Source: a virus. From it: a DNA stretch of 24,723 nucleotides. The stretch spans positions 1 through 24,723 of the IMG/VR virus record IMGVR_UViG_3300010354_000612. One strand, given 5' to 3'. The notes under the pieces are model-generated. The model ran no database searches, had not been told where the DNA came from, and saw only the letters and a list, made by a program, of their open reading frames with translations. Below are positions 49-14,568 of this stretch, in pieces; positions within the stretch are counted from its first letter, which is position 1; every line of letters begins with the position of its first letter. Both the position numbers and the translations under genes were made by a program.

Positions 49-1032
49 TCAGGCGACTGGGTTCTGGAAGATGAAACCAGCACCGCACTTGCCGTTCTCA
101 CCCATGCCGACGAGCTCGAAGCTACGCTCGACAAGGATGTCGCCGGTGAACACTCTGCGCTCGATGTTGAAGCGCTCAGGAGTGGAGATAGGATAACCAC
201 TCAGAGTGTAGGTGTAGGCGAAAGCGGGGTTACCATAGTTAGCGTCCAGGGCAGGCATGAAGCCGTCTGTGGAGGCGGAAGGATGGTAGAAGAGGATCGC
301 GGTGTTGTTGTAGATGTTCTCCAGCGCACCGGTGGCCTCATTCAGCTTCAGGCGACGGGCTACGCGAATCTCGTCGAGTCCGAAGATCTGGGCAAGAGTC
401 TTCTCATCGACAAGCACTCCACGCTGCATGAAGTCACGGATACGCTTGTTACGCTTGAGGGCGTTGAAAGCGTCAGGTGAGATCACCATCTTGTTGGGAT
501 ACACACCGATCTGGCTGCGGACCTGCTCCTTGGCGTCGTCCATCAGCACTTCCACGTCAGCAGTTGGGCTGTTGAACTGATCAGCACCACCATTATAGGT
601 GGCCAGGTTCAGCACGTTGTTGGTCTCGTACTGAGTGGTGTCGGTTACAGCGGTGGCAACCTGGATCTCCCAGGATTGCATCAGGCGGTTTGCGGCGTCC
701 TTAGCAGCGAACTGACGAAGGTCGATTTGAGCAGCGCCGTTCTTGGCCTCAGCGGCGACCTCTTCGGCGATTTCCCAGCTGACCGCTTCCTGACGGAGAG
801 CGAACGAACGGGTTCCGAATTGGTTCTGGATCTTCTGGATGTTAGTTCCAGGAGCGCGGAGGAAGGACTGAGCCGCGAAAGCTTCCTTACCGAATACCAG
901 GGTACGACCGGCGCGAGTATTCATAGATACCGCAGGAGCGAAGAAGGTAGCTACACCCTCAGCGTTCTTATACCCTTGAGCTAGTTGCGTAAGAATAGGG
1001 TCAATTACGCGTACCTGATCAAGATTCATCAT
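49..1032 (-). CDS. Major capsid protein (HK97-fold type, probable)
   Basis: This 327-residue protein probably forms the phage head shell. It has no signal peptide or membrane segment, and its mixed alpha/beta make-up and length fit phage coat proteins. Around residues 175-215 a segment with YPNKMVISPDAFNALKRN resembles the spine-helix/P-domain region of capsid proteins, where a residue-numbering loop (SPDAFNAL) precedes a basic stretch. The C-terminal part (YTLSGYPISTPERFNIERR...GDILVERSFELV) resembles the closing strands of coat proteins. Context supports the call: it is the last gene after protease/scaffold and decoration genes and is followed by a strong terminator. The start is ATG-ATG with a clear AAAGGAG ribosome site 10 nt before the first ATG, which fits high expression. 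The subfamily cannot be named from sequence alone; capsid identity is likely rather than certain. Confidence 0.85.
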   Translation of the reverse strand: MMNLDQVRVIDPILTQLAQGYKNAEGVATFFAPAVSMNTRAGRTLVFGKEAFAAQSFLRAPGTNIQKIQNQFGTRSFALRQEAVSWEIAEEVAAEAKNGAAQIDLRQFAAKDAANRLMQSWEIQVATAVTDTTQYETNNVLNLATYNGGADQFNSPTADVEVLMDDAKEQVRSQIGVYPNKMVISPDAFNALKRNKRIRDFMQRGVLVDEKTLAQIFGLDEIRVARRLKLNEATGALENIYNNTAILFYHPSASTDGFMPALDANYGNPAFAYTYTLSGYPISTPERFNIERRVFTGDILVERSFELVGMGENGKCGAGFIFQNPVA

Positions 1033-1060: not shown

Positions 1061-1585
1061 TCAAGCCAGAGCCGCGCCAGCTTCGTTACCGAGCTTGACA
1101 CGAACATAAGCAGTCTCACCTGCGCCGGTTGTAGCGGCGTCGAGGGCACGACCGAGGACGATCTTGCCGGTTCCAGCAGCGCCTGTTACGGCTTGGCCAG
1201 AAGCGTTAGCGAAGATCGGTGAGTCGACGACGATGGTCTGGGAAGCAGCTACCTGAACGATAACGATTCCAGTCGTCACGATTGAAGCCAGGCCCTGATA
1301 GGGGAATACGCCAGGCTTGTAAGGTGTGGTGGAAGGATTCAGTTGACCTTCGTACACCAGGGTCGAACCGTCATCCACTTGGTAGCCGTTGGCGTTCAGT
1401 TCGCCTTGGCCGTAGATACGGTATACATTCACGCCAGCGGCATAACCGTTGGCTGAGGGATACGCGCCGGTGCGCGTAACAAAACGATGAGCCTCGACAC
1501 CGTTGGTGAGAGCTGTGCTGTCGGTAACAGTTACAGTCTCAACATACTGGTGGTCAAAGGACATGTAACGTGGGTCTTTAGCCAT
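1061..1585 (-). CDS. Capsid decoration (cement) protein, probable
   Basis: This 174-residue protein is rich in Ala, Gly, Thr and Val and predicted to be mostly beta-strand. The C-terminal half contains the pattern IVVDSPIFANASGQAVTGAA...GKIVLGRALDAATTGAGE...VRV, which resembles DUF2190-like capsid cement proteins: a small barrel in which a parameter such as 'GxALxAATxxGExVxVxL' closes the fold. Such proteins sit on the outside of the mature shell and stabilise it. It lies directly between the protease/scaffold gene and the major capsid gene, where decoration genes usually lie. A good AAGGAG site precedes the ATG by about 9 nt. Only 28 nt separate its stop from the capsid start, so the two are cotranscribed. 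Family assignment is by pattern, not by search. Confidence 0.75.
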   Translation of the reverse strand: MAKDPRYMSFDHQYVETVTVTDSTALTNGVEAHRFVTRTGAYPSANGYAAGVNVYRIYGQGELNANGYQVDDGSTLVYEGQLNPSTTPYKPGVFPYQGLASIVTTGIVIVQVAASQTIVVDSPIFANASGQAVTGAAGTGKIVLGRALDAATTGAGETAYVRVKLGNEAGAALA

Positions 1586-1601: not shown

Positions 1602-2999
1602 TTAGTTGGATAGGACGGCCTTCAGAGCAACGGTGTACTCAACGCCTTTCTCTTCCGCGTATTCCAGCGCCTGAGCGTGGAGATCCGTGGTTGAGGGGTC
1701 GTAGACGTACCCATCGGCCGAAGGTGTTGGCTGTTTTCTGCTCTTAGGAGCAGATGCGGGTGTTGCGAACTCTTCAAAGCTTACCATGGAAGGCAGGTTG
1801 CCCAGGATACCCTTGAAGAAGTCGAATTGGGAGGCTTTGCCTGTCTCGGAGAAGTTCACCGAGTTCTTATTGTTGAGAGTCTCCATGAATCTCACCAGGT
1901 CAGTCTTGGCGACGATCTGCTGAGTCAGTTTACCCTCACCGTAGAGAGTCTCACAGAAATCAGAGATTTCCTTCTCTCTCATCAGTTTCTTTTGTCTGGC
2001 AAGTTCCTCTTCCAGTTCGGCTACCCGGGCTTGAAGGTCATTCTGTCCCTGAACTCCCATAGCGGATTCGCTATGATCCAGAGTTCCTGTAGCCTCTTCA
2101 GATGCGGTCTCTTCAGACATGTCGCTCTTCTTCATCATCTCTGCGTTCTTCTTCTCATCCTCGTCCTCTTCGTAATCCTTGCATCCTTCGCCGTTATCGG
2201 CTACTTCCTCTTCTTCTTCCTTTTTCTCTTCGGTCTCCTCTTCAGCGTAGACCTGCTCTCCTTTGGGTTCCTCAGCTCCTTTCACATCTTCGGAGGTAGG
2301 ATGCTCGGCTTCGGATGGCTTTTCGCCCTCCTTCACGGCTTCGCCCATATCCTCGGAATCTTCCTTCTCTTCTTTGTCCTCGTCATCTTTACCCTCTTTC
2401 TTAGCCTCAATAGCTTTCTTGAGACCTTCGGGCATCTCACCGTAGGACATTCCCTCACCTTCCATCATGGAAGCAGCATCAGTTTTTAGAGCTAGAGCCT
2501 TAATTAGCTCTTCGATTTCGTACTCAGAGGCGAGTTGGGCGATCTTCTGATCATCACCCTCCATGTCACCGGAGATATCCTCGGTGTCCATGCCAGGACC
2601 CTCATCGCCCTCTCCAGAAGGCTCCTCGGGGGCTTCGCCACCCATGTCGTCTCCGGCGTCATCGGCTGGAGCAGCGGCGTCATCACCACCCTCTTCAGGG
2701 GCATCTCCTCCCATGTCATCTCCGCCATCCTCAAGACCGAGATCATCGGACGAGTCGTCGGCCATGCTCATTTCGGGAGCTTCAGCTTCCATGTCTGATT
2801 CCATACCGTACTCCATGTCGTACTCGGCAGGAGCACCGGTCTCGGAGATCTGATTACCGCTATCGTCGTATACATTGGCTTTGGCCTTATCGCCGCCACC
2901 GCCGATATTGATATTAACGGTCATTCCTCCACCCTCAGTGTGCTCAACTGTTGAGCTAACCGAAGCGGGAGTTTCTGGTTTGGTTTTCTTCCTAGCCAT
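1602..2999 (-). CDS. Nested scaffold protein from internal start (candidate)
   Basis: An in-frame ATG at residue 179 of the protease/scaffold gene (2999-2997) would give a 465-residue protein that starts MARKKTKPE and contains all of the acidic, coiled-coil and C-terminal scaffold segments but no protease domain. Exactly 24 nt upstream on the same strand is GTTTAAA, the heptamer found before several other phage genes here at 23-26 nt, and a weak AGGA site lies 12 nt before the ATG. Known parallels are Mu gpZ within gene I and lambda Nu3 within gene C. That the protein exists is an inference from these signals; no direct evidence of expression is available. Confidence 0.6.
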   Translation of the reverse strand: MARKKTKPETPASVSSTVEHTEGGGMTVNINIGGGGDKAKANVYDDSGNQISETGAPAEYDMEYGMESDMEAEAPEMSMADDSSDDLGLEDGGDDMGGDAPEEGGDDAAAPADDAGDDMGGEAPEEPSGEGDEGPGMDTEDISGDMEGDDQKIAQLASEYEIEELIKALALKTDAASMMEGEGMSYGEMPEGLKKAIEAKKEGKDDEDKEEKEDSEDMGEAVKEGEKPSEAEHPTSEDVKGAEEPKGEQVYAEEETEEKKEEEEEVADNGEGCKDYEEDEDEKKNAEMMKKSDMSEETASEEATGTLDHSESAMGVQGQNDLQARVAELEEELARQKKLMREKEISDFCETLYGEGKLTQQIVAKTDLVRFMETLNNKNSVNFSETGKASQFDFFKGILGNLPSMVSFEEFATPASAPKSRKQPTPSADGYVYDPSTTDLHAQALEYAEEKGVEYTVALKAVLSN

Positions 3000-3533
3000 A
3001 GTTTGATTTTTTCCTAAATGTTCTTTAAACGAAATAGAAGACTCCCCTTCGGAGGGGGTAATTGTTATCGTTTTTTGCTCGGATAACTCCGAAAAAGCAG
3101 TAAGTCCCTTTACGGCCGGAATTGAAACTAAACCAAGATGACGTAGGGAGAGTTTCCCAGGAGTAGGATTTGTCTCAGCTTCGGGGAGGTAGAAGGAGCT
3201 ACTAACCTTTTTGAACACCCCATCTTTGATGAGTTGTTCGGCCTTGGGGGTAAGTTCTACCTTACCCCAAAGCTCTTTGCCCTTTCTCCAGACCTTACGT
3301 ACCCACCCGAGAGCAGGAGTGTCGTCCTGCTGATCGTGGCCAATAATCAGAGGGGCTTCGTGGTGAATGGGGTCATAAGACCCCACCACCTGATCCAAAT
3401 CGCTTTCCGTAAATACGAGCTTCTGGCCCGTAGAGGAGATCTGAGGGCCCGCTCTGAACATCTCGATAAACACGACCTTTTTAGGTTGTGCTTCCGAGAG
3501 AGGTTCTTTACGATTGAGTACGTGTTCTTTCAT
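1602..3533 (-). CDS. Prohead protease (Mu gpI-like) fused to acidic scaffold
   Basis: This 643-residue protein joins a head-maturation protease and a scaffold. Residues about 18-147 match the Mu gpI pattern: a YDPIHHEAPLIIGH segment (candidate His66), then GWVRKVW, LWGKVEL, a VSSSFYLP segment (candidate nucleophile Ser111-113) and a RHLGLVSIPAVKGL end. Residues about 230-480 are extremely acidic, with repeats such as DDMGGDAPEE and DDMGGEAPEE, then Glu/Lys-rich sequence. Residues about 500-530 look like a coiled coil (ARVAELEEELARQKKL). The tail of the protein (about 540-643) is helical and could bind the coat protein. The ATG lies 3 nt after the sheath stop with no Shine-Dalgarno site, so translation is probably coupled. 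Residue 179 is an in-frame ATG with its own promoter-like motif (see nested scaffold entry). In Mu, the scaffold gpZ is likewise made from the 3' part of gene I. Confidence 0.88.
   Translation of the reverse strand: MKEHVLNRKEPLSEAQPKKVVFIEMFRAGPQISSTGQKLVFTESDLDQVVGSYDPIHHEAPLIIGHDQQDDTPALGWVRKVWRKGKELWGKVELTPKAEQLIKDGVFKKVSSSFYLPEAETNPTPGKLSLRHLGLVSIPAVKGLTAFSELSEQKTITITPSEGESSISFKEHLGKNQTMARKKTKPETPASVSSTVEHTEGGGMTVNINIGGGGDKAKANVYDDSGNQISETGAPAEYDMEYGMESDMEAEAPEMSMADDSSDDLGLEDGGDDMGGDAPEEGGDDAAAPADDAGDDMGGEAPEEPSGEGDEGPGMDTEDISGDMEGDDQKIAQLASEYEIEELIKALALKTDAASMMEGEGMSYGEMPEGLKKAIEAKKEGKDDEDKEEKEDSEDMGEAVKEGEKPSEAEHPTSEDVKGAEEPKGEQVYAEEETEEKKEEEEEVADNGEGCKDYEEDEDEKKNAEMMKKSDMSEETASEEATGTLDHSESAMGVQGQNDLQARVAELEEELARQKKLMREKEISDFCETLYGEGKLTQQIVAKTDLVRFMETLNNKNSVNFSETGKASQFDFFKGILGNLPSMVSFEEFATPASAPKSRKQPTPSADGYVYDPSTTDLHAQALEYAEEKGVEYTVALKAVLSN
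3024..3030 (-). promoter_or_regulatory. GTTTAAA promoter-like motif inside protease gene
   Basis: An exact GTTTAAA on the minus strand lies within the protease/scaffold coding sequence, 24 nt before the internal ATG at 2999. Position and orientation match the other copies upstream of real genes. It may drive a separate scaffold transcript that also covers the decoration and capsid genes. Being in coding sequence it could also be chance. Confidence 0.5.
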
Positions 3534-3536
3534 CTA

Positions 3537-6173
3537 TCAGAATACGTTGGTTGTGTTGAGAAGAGTGCTAAATCTCTCCTCATTTCTGGAGAAGGAATCG
3601 CTCAGTTGAGCTACCTGACCAGCGGGCGTTCTGACGATGGTCACAAGCAGACGCTCAAGAGTTGGGCTTGTAGCCACGTACACGTCGAGTCTTACAGTGC
3701 CGTTTTCGAGGTCCGTTGCGTTATTGTTTGCCGATGAACAAACAACCAGATACGCTTGCTCAGGCCTGGATCCGAATAGCGCTCCCTGACGGAAGAACTG
3801 ACCACAGATCTGAGAAGCAATGGACTTCACTCTGGCGTACACAGTTCCTGCGGAATCGATCTGCTCGAAGAGAACGTCGTCGAAGCTGCGTCCCATAACG
3901 TCAATAAGGACATTAAGGATGGCACGTGTGTTTACAAACTTAAACAGAGGGTTGGAGGAGAGAGTTCTCGCGCCCCATGCCACGATTCCTCTGTTAGGAA
4001 GCGAGCGGATAGGGTTCAGTCCCAGAGTATAAGTAACTTCTTGCTGCTGAGCTGAGATGTCGAACTTGAGTCCGATGGCTCCGCGCAGAGGATAACGAGC
4101 TCCTGCAGGAGGCTGCTGGAAGCCCTCGTTGATGTACCTGGAGCAGGCGATACCGGCAATAAAGCCCGAAGGAGCAACATAGCGGTCGTCCAGGTTCTTG
4201 ATGTATGGAGCGTAGTAAGCGGCGTGGCCGAAAGGAACACCGACAGTGCTCTTAATCAGATCCAGTTCGTCCTGAACACGCACCAGAGAGGTCTCGTCGG
4301 CGCCACAGTCGATGAGCGCGATGTGCTGGGTTCCTGTGATACCTTCCGTGACTCCGATCTTGCCTTCAGCAGCTCTGACGAGTGTCTGAGTGATCTTCAA
4401 GCGTTCCTGACGGGCTTCGGATTGGCTAGCAAAGTCACCGACTCCGGCCTCGTAGGCAAGCACGGTGTAGGCTTCGGGAGCGAAGAGGAAACCAGGGGCT
4501 AATGCTCTCGATTCCATTCCCTGCTCGATGGCGTAGACAAAGTCATTGGCCTTGGCGCTCGAGGTCAGCTTATACGACTCGTAGGAGGAGCTCTGCTCTA
4601 CGGAGGGGAGTTTAACAACGTTGGGGTCGATCGCTCCGCTTCTGTTCACTCCGGGATACACTGGTGAACTGATTCCGTTCTTCGAGGTGATTCTGATCTT
4701 CAGAACGTAATCGTGCGAGTAGAATCCGTTAGCGGCGGCTTTCTCCGCGGCTGTTGGGGTTCCTGTCAACTCAGTGAGCTCTGGACGGATGTAAGGAGCA
4801 CCGGCTTCGGAGATGAGTTCGCCATTAGTATCGAGACCGTTGTTTGGAACGTACTTGGTGGCGCTAATTCTTCCGCTTGTGGTATCGGAGTCTAGAGTTC
4901 CGGCTTCTACCGTGTAGTAGGAATCCAGATCTTTCTCGGCGAGAATCGCTTCGATCGCGGTCTTGAGCTTTGTGGTCAGTTCTGCAGGATCAGCACCGTC
5001 GATGATAATCGCCCTATTCTCCCCGGCAACATTCACGTAGAATACCTGAACCGAGTCGGGAAGGTATCCTGTGCGGGTTGTGGGATCGCCACTAGGTACA
5101 ATCGCTGCGCTGGAGCCGTTGACAAGCTTAGCAAAAGCTGTAGTGGCCAGATCGTATTGCCAATAGGCAGCGTCAGCATTGGCCCACTTGGAAGTGTTGG
5201 TGCTGGTGTCTACTGAGATGGCGATGTACTTATCGTCGGGGATGGCCGAAGCGGCAGTGTAGAATCCCTGGACAATGAGGAATTCTTTAATGATCTGAGA
5301 CTGCTGAGTGGCTACGTTGTAGCTCTTAGTGGCCGCAAAGGAACTGAGTTGGCCTCCGGAGATATGCAGAATTGCCTGCTTGTTAGTCTGGTCTCTGGAC
5401 ACACACCTGAAATTGATGTCCTTAATAGAGGAGTACAGAGTAACAACGCCGGCCTGAGCAAGCAGGTCGAGTTGCTGGGCATACTCACTATTGGAGAACT
5501 TATAGGCGTAAAGTTTCTGTACCTCAGGAAGGTCTCTGGAGTCCTTGGAGAAGATTCTGAACTTGCCTGCCAGAGCCTCAGCTGCGTCCTGCTCGATGCG
5601 ATAGAAGTCGGCGAAGTTATCGCCATTACCGGAGAGGTACGTGTAGATATCTCTGGCGTTATCGATCTGATCTAAGGCAGTAGTTGTGATTACACGAATC
5701 TCAACTCCGTCCGCATCGTCGATTCCGATGGGAGTACCAAAATACCGACCATTTACCTTGATCGCAAAGGCATTGTAGGTCGTTCCGGCGGTCGACGCAC
5801 CAATATTGATTACAGTCTCCGGTGTTGGTGTAACTCTGGTGAAGTAGAGAATACCATTAACGCCAACGTTATCGAAGAAGGCCTTTACGCTATCGTATGT
5901 AGCCAGGGCTCCTTTGTTACCGACAGGAGGCTTTCCTCCGATTCTGCTGAGAAAATCATCAACTGATCCGATCTGAGTCGGAACGTAGGGTTGAAGATCG
6001 GAATAGGCGCTAATAGCATCTTCCTTGTAGTAATCCTCAGTGGGGGTAGTACCGAAGATATATCCCACCGCGTGAGTTGCGATAGGTTGTGGAAGAGAGC
6101 CTGTCGAGGTTTGTGTTACGAAGACTCCCGGCCGATTCAATGTCGCAGCATTGATTCTGATTGGATTGGCCAT
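3537..6173 (-). CDS. Contractile tail sheath protein
   Basis: This 878-residue protein forms the outer contractile tube of the tail. The N-terminus (NRPGVFVTQTSTGSLPQP, residues about 13-30) is the typical PGVYVxE-type opening of sheath proteins. Residues about 70-120 carry the usual F...G......YDSVKAFFDNVG...LYFTRV pattern. The C-terminal region (about 750-870) has FVNTRAILNVLIDVMGRSFDDVLFE and then a Q...FFRQGALFG segment, which is the conserved helix-and-strand part that packs on the tube. It is longer than T4 gp18 (about 660 residues); the extra sequence is in the middle (about 130-560) and is probably an exposed insertion domain. The ATG has no Shine-Dalgarno site. A GTTTAAG motif lies 35 nt upstream. 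Protease/scaffold follows at 3 nt. Confidence 0.95.
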   Translation of the reverse strand: MANPIRINAATLNRPGVFVTQTSTGSLPQPIATHAVGYIFGTTPTEDYYKEDAISAYSDLQPYVPTQIGSVDDFLSRIGGKPPVGNKGALATYDSVKAFFDNVGVNGILYFTRVTPTPETVINIGASTAGTTYNAFAIKVNGRYFGTPIGIDDADGVEIRVITTTALDQIDNARDIYTYLSGNGDNFADFYRIEQDAAEALAGKFRIFSKDSRDLPEVQKLYAYKFSNSEYAQQLDLLAQAGVVTLYSSIKDINFRCVSRDQTNKQAILHISGGQLSSFAATKSYNVATQQSQIIKEFLIVQGFYTAASAIPDDKYIAISVDTSTNTSKWANADAAYWQYDLATTAFAKLVNGSSAAIVPSGDPTTRTGYLPDSVQVFYVNVAGENRAIIIDGADPAELTTKLKTAIEAILAEKDLDSYYTVEAGTLDSDTTSGRISATKYVPNNGLDTNGELISEAGAPYIRPELTELTGTPTAAEKAAANGFYSHDYVLKIRITSKNGISSPVYPGVNRSGAIDPNVVKLPSVEQSSSYESYKLTSSAKANDFVYAIEQGMESRALAPGFLFAPEAYTVLAYEAGVGDFASQSEARQERLKITQTLVRAAEGKIGVTEGITGTQHIALIDCGADETSLVRVQDELDLIKSTVGVPFGHAAYYAPYIKNLDDRYVAPSGFIAGIACSRYINEGFQQPPAGARYPLRGAIGLKFDISAQQQEVTYTLGLNPIRSLPNRGIVAWGARTLSSNPLFKFVNTRAILNVLIDVMGRSFDDVLFEQIDSAGTVYARVKSIASQICGQFFRQGALFGSRPEQAYLVVCSSANNNATDLENGTVRLDVYVATSPTLERLLVTIVRTPAGQVAQLSDSFSRNEERFSTLLNTTNVF

Positions 6174-6208
6174 AAATTTTTGAAGACACCATATCTTTCA
6201 ATATAGCC

Positions 6209-6215
6209 CTTAAAC
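6209..6215 (-). promoter_or_regulatory. GTTTAAG promoter-like motif before sheath gene
   Basis: GTTTAAG on the minus strand, a one-base variant of the GTTTAAA motif, lies in the 63-nt gap before the sheath gene, 35 nt upstream of its ATG. It is followed by TATATTGAA, similar to TAT..AGAA-type sequence after other copies. It could give the sheath and head genes extra transcription over the small genes upstream. A second GTTTAAG inside the sheath gene near 3947 has no start nearby, so this variant alone is weak evidence. Confidence 0.45.
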
Positions 6216-6236
6216 AAACGGTGGGTTTTAACTTGT

Positions 6237-6479
6237 TTAGTCGGTTTCGTCCATCTTGTAGAGCTGGAATAATTCATTCATCAGCCAGTCCGGGCAGGAT
6301 ACCGCTCCGCACCTCCTAAACTCTAAAATTCTCATCGACTTCCTTAGAATCTTATTAAAATCCGGCGTATCTACATATCGCGAATTTACGCTTACAAACC
6401 CCTTGAGATCCGACACATCCCTCCTAAGGCAGATGGAGCATAGTATGAGGATGAGTTTTAGTCTTTCCGAATCTGTCAT
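6237..6479 (-). CDS. Small protein of unknown function in tail operon
   Basis: This 80-residue protein begins MTDSERLKLILIL and is predicted to be mainly helical. It has three cysteines (SICLRR, RRCGAVSC) but no clear zinc-site spacing. It is not recognised. Its ATG overlaps the stop of the preceding gene (TGATG), so it is translationally coupled and cotranscribed with the two genes upstream. Lying between a chaperone-like gene and the sheath gene, it probably helps tail assembly or is a minor tail part, but the sequence itself shows no function. Confidence 0.7.
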   Translation of the reverse strand: MTDSERLKLILILCSICLRRDVSDLKGFVSVNSRYVDTPDFNKILRKSMRILEFRRCGAVSCPDWLMNELFQLYKMDETD

Positions 6480-7281: not shown

Positions 7282-7307
7282 GGGAGGGATTGTTATGTGT
7301 CCCACTC

Positions 7308-7314
7308 TTTAAAC
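7308..7314 (-). promoter_or_regulatory. GTTTAAA motif, leftward half of divergent promoter pair
   Basis: An exact GTTTAAA on the minus strand ends 26 nt before the ATG at 7281. With the plus-strand copy at 7321-7327 it forms an inverted repeat (TTTAAAC, 6-nt spacer CCCTTT, GTTTAAA) in the only gap between two divergent operons. Likely a promoter for the leftward tail/head operon. Confidence 0.65.
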
Positions 7315-7320
7315 CCCTTT

Positions 7321-7327
7321 GTTTAAA
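7321..7327 (+). promoter_or_regulatory. GTTTAAA motif, rightward half of divergent promoter pair
   Basis: An exact GTTTAAA on the plus strand ends 25 nt before the ATG at 7353. It is followed by ATTATCTATAGAA and then the ribosome site. Likely a promoter for the rightward small-gene/dCMP deaminase cassette. Confidence 0.65.
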
Positions 7328-14549: not shown

Positions 14550-14556
14550 TTTAAAC
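14550..14556 (-). promoter_or_regulatory. GTTTAAA motif, leftward half of second divergent pair
   Basis: An exact GTTTAAA on the minus strand ends 23 nt before the ATG at 14526. Together with 14562-14568 it makes a perfect inverted repeat (CTTTAAAC, spacer TTTGG, GTTTAAAG). Likely promoter of the 1288-residue/LRR operon. Confidence 0.65.
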
Positions 14557-14561
14557 TTTGG

Positions 14562-14568
14562 GTTTAAA
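14562..14568 (+). promoter_or_regulatory. GTTTAAA motif, rightward half of second divergent pair
   Basis: An exact GTTTAAA on the plus strand ends 23 nt before the ATG at 14592 and is followed by GCTATGAGAA. Likely promoter of the operon that leads into the portal gene. Confidence 0.65.

Follow-up and report, generated by a model that had tools for sequence, protein, structure and literature searches.

Comparative sequence evidence for a nested scaffold start with a candidate late promoter inside the protease gene of S-TIM5-like cyanophages

Results

The protease/scaffold locus and its gene order

The window analysed here, a stretch of 24,723 bases, is a virus record of its own. It comes from a relative of cyanophage S-TIM5 (Aurunvirus), of whose genome it covers a part, and it carries head and tail genes of the same kinds and in the same order as S-TIM5. 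The genes for tail sheath, protease/scaffold, a cement-like head protein and the major capsid protein follow one another in that order on one strand, and the portal gene lies on the other (Table 1). The window carries Mu-type portal and sheath genes in an S-TIM5-like order and is thus not derived from a virus of the herpesvirus order. S-TIM5 and its relatives share this gene order and have a homologous protease/scaffold gene with the same motif and methionine as described below for the window; in the S-TIM5 annotation the locus holds a single protease gene, without a nested gene. Within the gap that precedes the sheath gene (6174-6478, minus strand) a short unlisted open reading frame of about 80 codons seems to be present, where S-TIM5 has gp149.

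Table 1. Positions of genes and sequence features in the window
Feature	Position	Strand	Evidence
Major capsid protein gene	49..1032	-	PHROG 1005, E 1.7e-69
Cement-like head protein gene, next downstream of protease/scaffold	1061..1585	-	PHROG 1731, E 0.00096; PF09956, E 1.6e-4, below curated cut-off
Full-length head maturation protease/scaffold ORF, 643 aa	1602..3533	-	PHROG 976, E 3.8e-68; PHROG 328; PF10123, E 5.7e-10
Putative nested scaffold ORF, 465 aa	1602..2999	-	Sequence; residues 279-463 match PHROG 976 positions 213-393, E 1.9e-23
Covarying RNA hairpin within scaffold coding sequence	2052..2085	-	12 pairs, 98.2% of 396 cells paired
Block of suppressed synonymous variation (motif, leader, start region), window-like phages	2973..3047	-	Codon test and permutation
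Putative nested start codon ATG, Met179	2997..2999	-	Met in 61/61 unique ORFs
Stretch between motif and ATG, 24 nt	3000..3023	-	Met179 is first ATG past motif in 50/51 unique motif-bearing ORFs
Low-confidence linker, residues 139-178, carrying motif and leader	3000..3119	-	pLDDT <50
Nested promoter-like motif GTTTAAAG	3023..3030	-	Synonymous invariance in 37/37 representatives; permutation 0/2000
Protease core, residues 16-138, herpesvirus-protease-like fold	3120..3488	-	AlphaFold2 confident core; Foldseek and VIA-align matches
Tail sheath gene, upstream of protease, same operon	3537..6173	-	PHROG 17610
GTTTAAGG, one-mismatch motif 34 nt before sheath start	6208..6215	-	Sequence
GTTTAAAG before first gene of leftward operon	7307..7314	-	Motif positions

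The protease part and its predicted fold

The protease/scaffold ORF matched the Mu-like protease family PF10123 with 39.7 bits against a cut-off of 25.2. PHROG 976, a family of head maturation proteases, covers both the protease part and residues 279-463 of the nested product, and the single ORF joins an N-terminal protease to a C-terminal scaffold. Since the protease core spans residues 16-138 and the nested product aligns to the C-terminal half of PHROG 976, the motif and Met179 fall within the linker that joins protease to scaffold.

When the AlphaFold2 model of the protease (mean pLDDT 67.9) was compared with known structures by Foldseek, the top 17 rows were all herpesvirus proteases, with a best E value of 6.8e-5. 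VIA alignment to a herpesvirus protease gave Z 8.5 over 119 residues at 3.4 Å, and T4 gp21 gave Z 8.0. The predicted match to a herpesvirus-type fold is consistent but modest (Z near 8), and a search of solved structures by sequence returned no match at E values up to 1. His66, Ser111 and His132 are invariant in 25 aligned proteases and may correspond to the Ser-His-His catalytic triad of herpesvirus proteases. Triplets of the form aromatic-x-Glu (FSE, FKE, FEE, YAE) were seen by eye to recur in the product of 1602-3533 and in its relatives; they might be cleavage sites of the protease.

A GTTTAAA motif precedes an internal ATG at the spacing of other gene starts

A first-pass annotation of the window had placed an ATG exactly 24 nt after GTTTAAA within the protease/scaffold gene. 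This was confirmed on the minus strand (GTTTAAA at 3030-3024, ATG at 2999-2997); counted from the ORF start at 3533 the ATG is codon 179, and the nested product would begin MARKKTKPE (MTKKK in S-TIM5). The annotation had also taken 24 nt to be the spacing of true operon starts, and that too was borne out: the other six GTTTAAA sites of the window lie 25, 26, 23, 23, 26 or 35, and 32 nt before a likely start, so that the nested spacing is typical of a range of 23-35 nt. In S-TIM5, 30 pairs of site and start were found within 60 nt of each other, mostly 19-40 nt apart. Of the 51 unique ORFs that carry the nested motif, 31 have 24 nt between motif and ATG, and the other 20 have 27 nt.

S-TIM5 genes hold 14 GTTTAAA sites on the sense strand (15 site-gene pairs). 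The nested site is the only one of these 14 that is followed by an in-frame ATG after 15-45 nt; random positions within S-TIM5 genes have such an ATG in 14% of cases. The leader between motif and ATG has a GC content of 32%, compared with 48% for the ORF. No clear Shine-Dalgarno sequence was visible at normal spacing in the leaders; the window has AGGA 12 nt from the ATG. Frameshifting at TTTAAAG was considered as an explanation of the sequence and rejected by inspection, since the ORF reads the site as TTT-AAA and a shift to the -1 frame would run straight into TAA.

GTTTAAA as a candidate late promoter of the phage lineage

GTTTAAA occurs seven times in the window, against 2.06 expected from dinucleotide shuffles; one of 100 shuffles reached seven. 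In the S-TIM5 genome (172,474 bases) it occurs 63 times, counting both strands. It is the commonest 7-mer at positions -60 to -10 of S-TIM5 genes (28 of 212 CDS), and 29 of the 212 CDS have it at most 60 nt upstream, namely 19 of 47 structural genes and 10 of 165 others (Fisher p 5.4e-8). From the enrichment at gene starts and the preference for structural genes, GTTTAAA behaves as a late promoter in S-TIM5, and we regard it as a candidate late promoter for the phage lineage. Six longer contigs of the motif-bearing groups contain GTTTAAAG 34, 24, 23, 29, 14 and 13 times, and the same pattern read backwards 7, 3, 0, 2, 1 and 1 times.

The motif is followed by G in 25 of 30 gene-upstream sites of S-TIM5, and TAGA stands at position 8 past it in 8 of 30; the nested site of S-TIM5 (44495, minus strand) has both. 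Small inverted repeats around TAGA were noticed in several S-TIM5 leaders after GTTTAAAG, for example at 76707 and 105196. No -35 element was visible at the S-TIM5 motif sites. For the S-TIM5 sigma factor gp108, Pfam gave a match to sigma region 2, with a score slightly short of the curated cut-off, and none to region 4, which is in keeping with a promoter without a visible -35 element. We infer that gp108 may be the factor that recognises GTTTAAA.

The S-TIM5 sheath gene has an exact GTTTAAAG 40 nt ahead of its start. In the window and in S-TIM5 and S-TIM54 alike, the interval from the protease gene to the major capsid gene contains no exact GTTTAAA, and the nearest exact copy upstream of the cement and major capsid genes is the nested site. 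As the nearest motif upstream, the nested site would thus feed scaffold, cement and capsid genes together.

Motif codons and start region are under synonymous constraint

Loci were gathered with six protease peptides, none of which covers the motif, and separately by way of the major capsid protein. A protease match was present in 119 sequences. These gave 101 complete ORFs, 61 of them unique; 18 sequences were left out because they were cut by contig ends or too divergent (including L060-L062). Codon tests used 37 of the 51 unique motif-bearing ORFs, less than 97% identical to each other in nucleotide sequence. Related sequences are not independent, and the permutation values given here ignore the tree.

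The check proposed in the first-pass annotation, whether homologues keep motif and methionine, favoured a nested gene. Met179 is kept in all 61 unique ORFs and the motif in 51 of them, with no synonymous change in the motif codons of the 37 representatives. The codons TCG TTT AAA GAA are invariant in all 37, between pairs of sequences with nucleotide identities down to 57%, and no other of the 79 four-codon runs is invariant; across 259 conserved columns, codon diversity in these representatives is on average 0.77 of that expected. In a scan of the whole ORF only two windows beat all 2000 permutations, -17 to -7, around the motif, and +478 to +487, which corresponds to an RNA hairpin described below. 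In phages most like the window the constraint extends through the leader past Met179 (windows -10 to +1 and +4 to +17). Taken by itself, the S-TIM5-like clade shows no significant constraint at the nested site (P 0.23), because its sequences are close to each other.

The invariance of Met179 is in itself not sufficient proof of a start, and was rejected as such: the methionines at alignment positions +27 and +68 past Met179 are also invariant in the 61 unique ORFs. No synonymous constraint was found around that at +27, and both are probably structural. The peptide ISF(K/Q/E)E is conserved as well, its Ile, Ser, Phe and Glu being present in every one of the 61 unique ORFs; its conservation, perhaps as a protease cleavage site, explains the amino acids and not the codons. 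The more distant relatives S-CBWM1 and L060-L062 have neither motif nor Met at that place, so that the nested arrangement is a feature of this lineage.

A CCCC/GGGG hairpin just upstream of GTTTAAA was considered as part of a terminator-promoter tandem. It folds in most sequences, with a mean z of -0.69 in the motif clades and -1.48 in the motif-less clade (control windows, -0.60). Only 1 of 47 sequences reached p < 0.05 against synonymous recoding, and the candidate was rejected.

A clade with a different promoter-like motif provides a natural control

The ten unique ORFs without the motif all retain the Met and form one clade with full support (L102, L105, L115, L116, L118, L121, L122 and relatives), whose own promoter-like motif is GTTGAAAG. 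At the nested site these sequences have TCA-TTY followed by a Gln or Glu codon. Over the 90.5 kb of 12 loci from the clade there are two copies of GTTTAAA, neither of them upstream of a called ORF, and 46 of GTTGAAA, of which 19 lie upstream of ORFs. Past the major capsid gene, too, GTTGAAA stands at the site that GTTTAAA occupies in the other groups. Three contigs of the clade contain GTTGAAAG 15, 9 and 7 times, compared with 2, 1 and 1 for the pattern read backwards, and in three of seven loci inspected (L102, L115 and L121) it lies directly before the full-length start instead.

At the place of the motif, the Phe and Gln codons of this clade are as diverse as chance predicts (1.02 and 1.01 of expectation), while codons +2 to +8 past the Met are constrained (P 0.0065). 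The motif codons are thus fixed only in groups that use GTTTAAA, and in both groups the start region is fixed. Since the Met is kept where the motif is absent, its retention must have a cause that does not depend on the promoter. In the tree one change between presence and absence of the motif suffices; the outgroups root it poorly (branches of length 10), so that it accommodates gain and loss of the nested promoter alike. Two segments in the stretch from about 37 to 12 codons upstream of the nested Met, GAAGGCTC and GAGTCTTC (as in L116), are constrained in this clade and fold together in 10 of 10 sequences. Their pairing is possibly an RNA device that stands in for the promoter.

A covarying RNA hairpin lies within the scaffold coding sequence

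The second constrained window of the scan corresponds to an RNA hairpin, for which 33 of the 37 representatives were aligned. Three of its pairs show changes on both sides. Its covariation score was reached by none of 500 shuffles and its number of double-change pairs by 10 of 500, and it is more stable than synonymous recodings (p < 0.05) in 34 of 37 sequences. The hairpin is present in a single copy in the window (92 bits) and in S-TIM5 (82.9 bits), the next score in nine sources being 12.4. No Rfam family was found at the site, and the hairpin is missing from the GTTGAAAG clade. Our guess would be that it controls translation or stability of the scaffold message.

Discussion

The motif, its spacing, its promoter-like distribution, the synonymous constraint, the conserved Met and the gene order were all computed from the sequences. 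We consider it likely that they reflect an in-frame, 3′-coterminal pair of products, a protease-scaffold fusion and a 465-residue scaffold made from its own nested late promoter. Transcripts from promoters before the sheath gene and further upstream would give the 643-residue fusion. A second phage late promoter, GTTTAAAG, placed in the codons of the linker, would give a shorter transcript on which Met179 is the first ATG, and from which the scaffold alone and then the cement and major capsid proteins could be translated. A small amount of the fusion would enter the prohead, and scaffold and capsid protein, needed in hundreds of copies, would come from the stronger downstream unit. The simplest model would have two overlapping units, one comprising the sheath and the protease-scaffold fusion and the other scaffold, cement and capsid. 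The first-pass proposal of a nested scaffold gene with its own promoter is thus supported as regards motif, Met and codon constraint; for promoter use and strength, the start site of the transcript, sigma recognition and the ratio of the two proteins, the scheme states what we infer.

The same promoter might serve mainly the cement and capsid genes, with Met179 an incidental or minor start and most scaffold cut from the full-length protein by the protease. The lack of an exact GTTTAAA between the protease and major capsid genes in the window, S-TIM5 and S-TIM54 would fit such an arrangement, as would the equal invariance of the methionines at +27 and +68. We nevertheless think it rather unlikely: in phages resembling the window the constraint reaches across the leader into the first codons past Met179, codons +2 to +8 are constrained even in the clade that lacks the motif (P 0.0065), and Met179 is the first ATG past the motif in 50 of 51 ORFs. 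The reverse case, in which nesting is purely translational in the manner of lambda and Mu, with a start at Met179 on the long transcript and no promoter activity of GTTTAAA, would account for the GTTGAAAG clade, which keeps the Met and the constraint on the start region without the motif and in which the constrained upstream arms GAAGGCTC and GAGTCTTC could pair. It is unlikely in view of the strong link of GTTTAAA to gene starts throughout the genome, with the same spacing and the same following G as at the nested site, and of motif codons that are fixed exactly in the clades using GTTTAAA but free to vary in the GTTGAAAG clade.

Conservation might also act at the level of the protein, the peptide SISFKE being a protease/scaffold cleavage site and the DNA motif its by-product. 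The peptide does lie at a domain boundary, with Ile, Ser, Phe and Glu in all 61 unique ORFs, and S-CBWM1 has a similar ISF. Against this stands the absence of synonymous variation from four codons of two- to six-fold degeneracy in 37 of 37 representatives, at positions that vary freely in the GTTGAAAG clade. This control is the strongest guard against a purely protein-level cause, and the evidence from codons makes the cleavage-site explanation highly improbable.

Capsid assembly requires far more scaffold than protease. In lambda and Mu the scaffold is made by internal in-frame translation starts on a long transcript, and in herpesviruses the balance is set by a promoter inside the protease gene. 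To our knowledge, the phages studied so far are thought to set the ratio of scaffold to protease by internal translation starts or by proteolysis. The first-pass annotation had likened the locus to Mu I/Z and lambda C/Nu3. The likeness holds in that one gene encodes protease and scaffold and that the window protease belongs to a Mu-like family; here, by contrast, a phage promoter motif lies inside the protease part. Since the protease model matches herpesvirus proteases best, the closest parallel is instead UL26/UL26.5 of herpesviruses (UL80/UL80.5 of HCMV), in which an N-terminal protease is likewise fused to the scaffold and the scaffold ORF is in frame and 3′-coterminal. The present case differs in occurring in a tailed cyanophage with a contractile-tail sheath, in having a putative promoter of bacterial-virus type, and in that the nested unit would also serve the cement and capsid genes; the counterpart of the herpesvirus promoter within the protease ORF is here a candidate with strong comparative evidence. 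It is a case of a phage working like UL26/UL26.5 and not of a herpesvirus.

For the herpesvirus system, a passage in PMC4498786 describes UL26.5 as in frame with and 3′-coterminal to UL26, and the title of a reference given there indicates that nesting is achieved by a promoter. The scaffold that derives from the long form in herpesviruses, VP21, is put at about 10% of the total in a passage of PMC12474303. For lambda and P2, a passage in PMC8508860 states that protease and scaffold share one gene. Literature on S-TIM5, on GTTTAAA phage promoters, on nested scaffold/protease promoters and on cyanophage late promoters yielded no description of such an arrangement; the original S-TIM5 paper might mention one.

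A broader reading, towards which our confidence is evenly divided, is that a lineage of tailed phages doses scaffold against protease in the herpesvirus way. It would combine a late promoter that is embedded in linker codons of a gene for a herpesvirus-type protease and drives cement and capsid as well; a sister group that lost or never had this promoter and keeps the internal start, perhaps by means of RNA structure; and, in the groups with the promoter, the covarying hairpin as an additional layer of control on the RNA. The arrangement would then be either convergent or an old shared trait of the capsid lineage. The fold match carries no information on how the promoter arose.

If the nested late promoter is real, control of the herpesvirus type would occur in a cultured phage group with a matching protease fold, and S-TIM5 grown on Synechococcus WH 8102 would offer a simple laboratory setting in which to test the origin of the arrangement. 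Annotation of such loci as a single gene may miss a product.

Another feature of motif placement is found between divergent genes. At 7308-7327 and 14550-14568 of the window, divergent GTTTAAA pairs stand back to back, 5-6 nt apart, and similar close divergent pairs are also present in S-TIM5.
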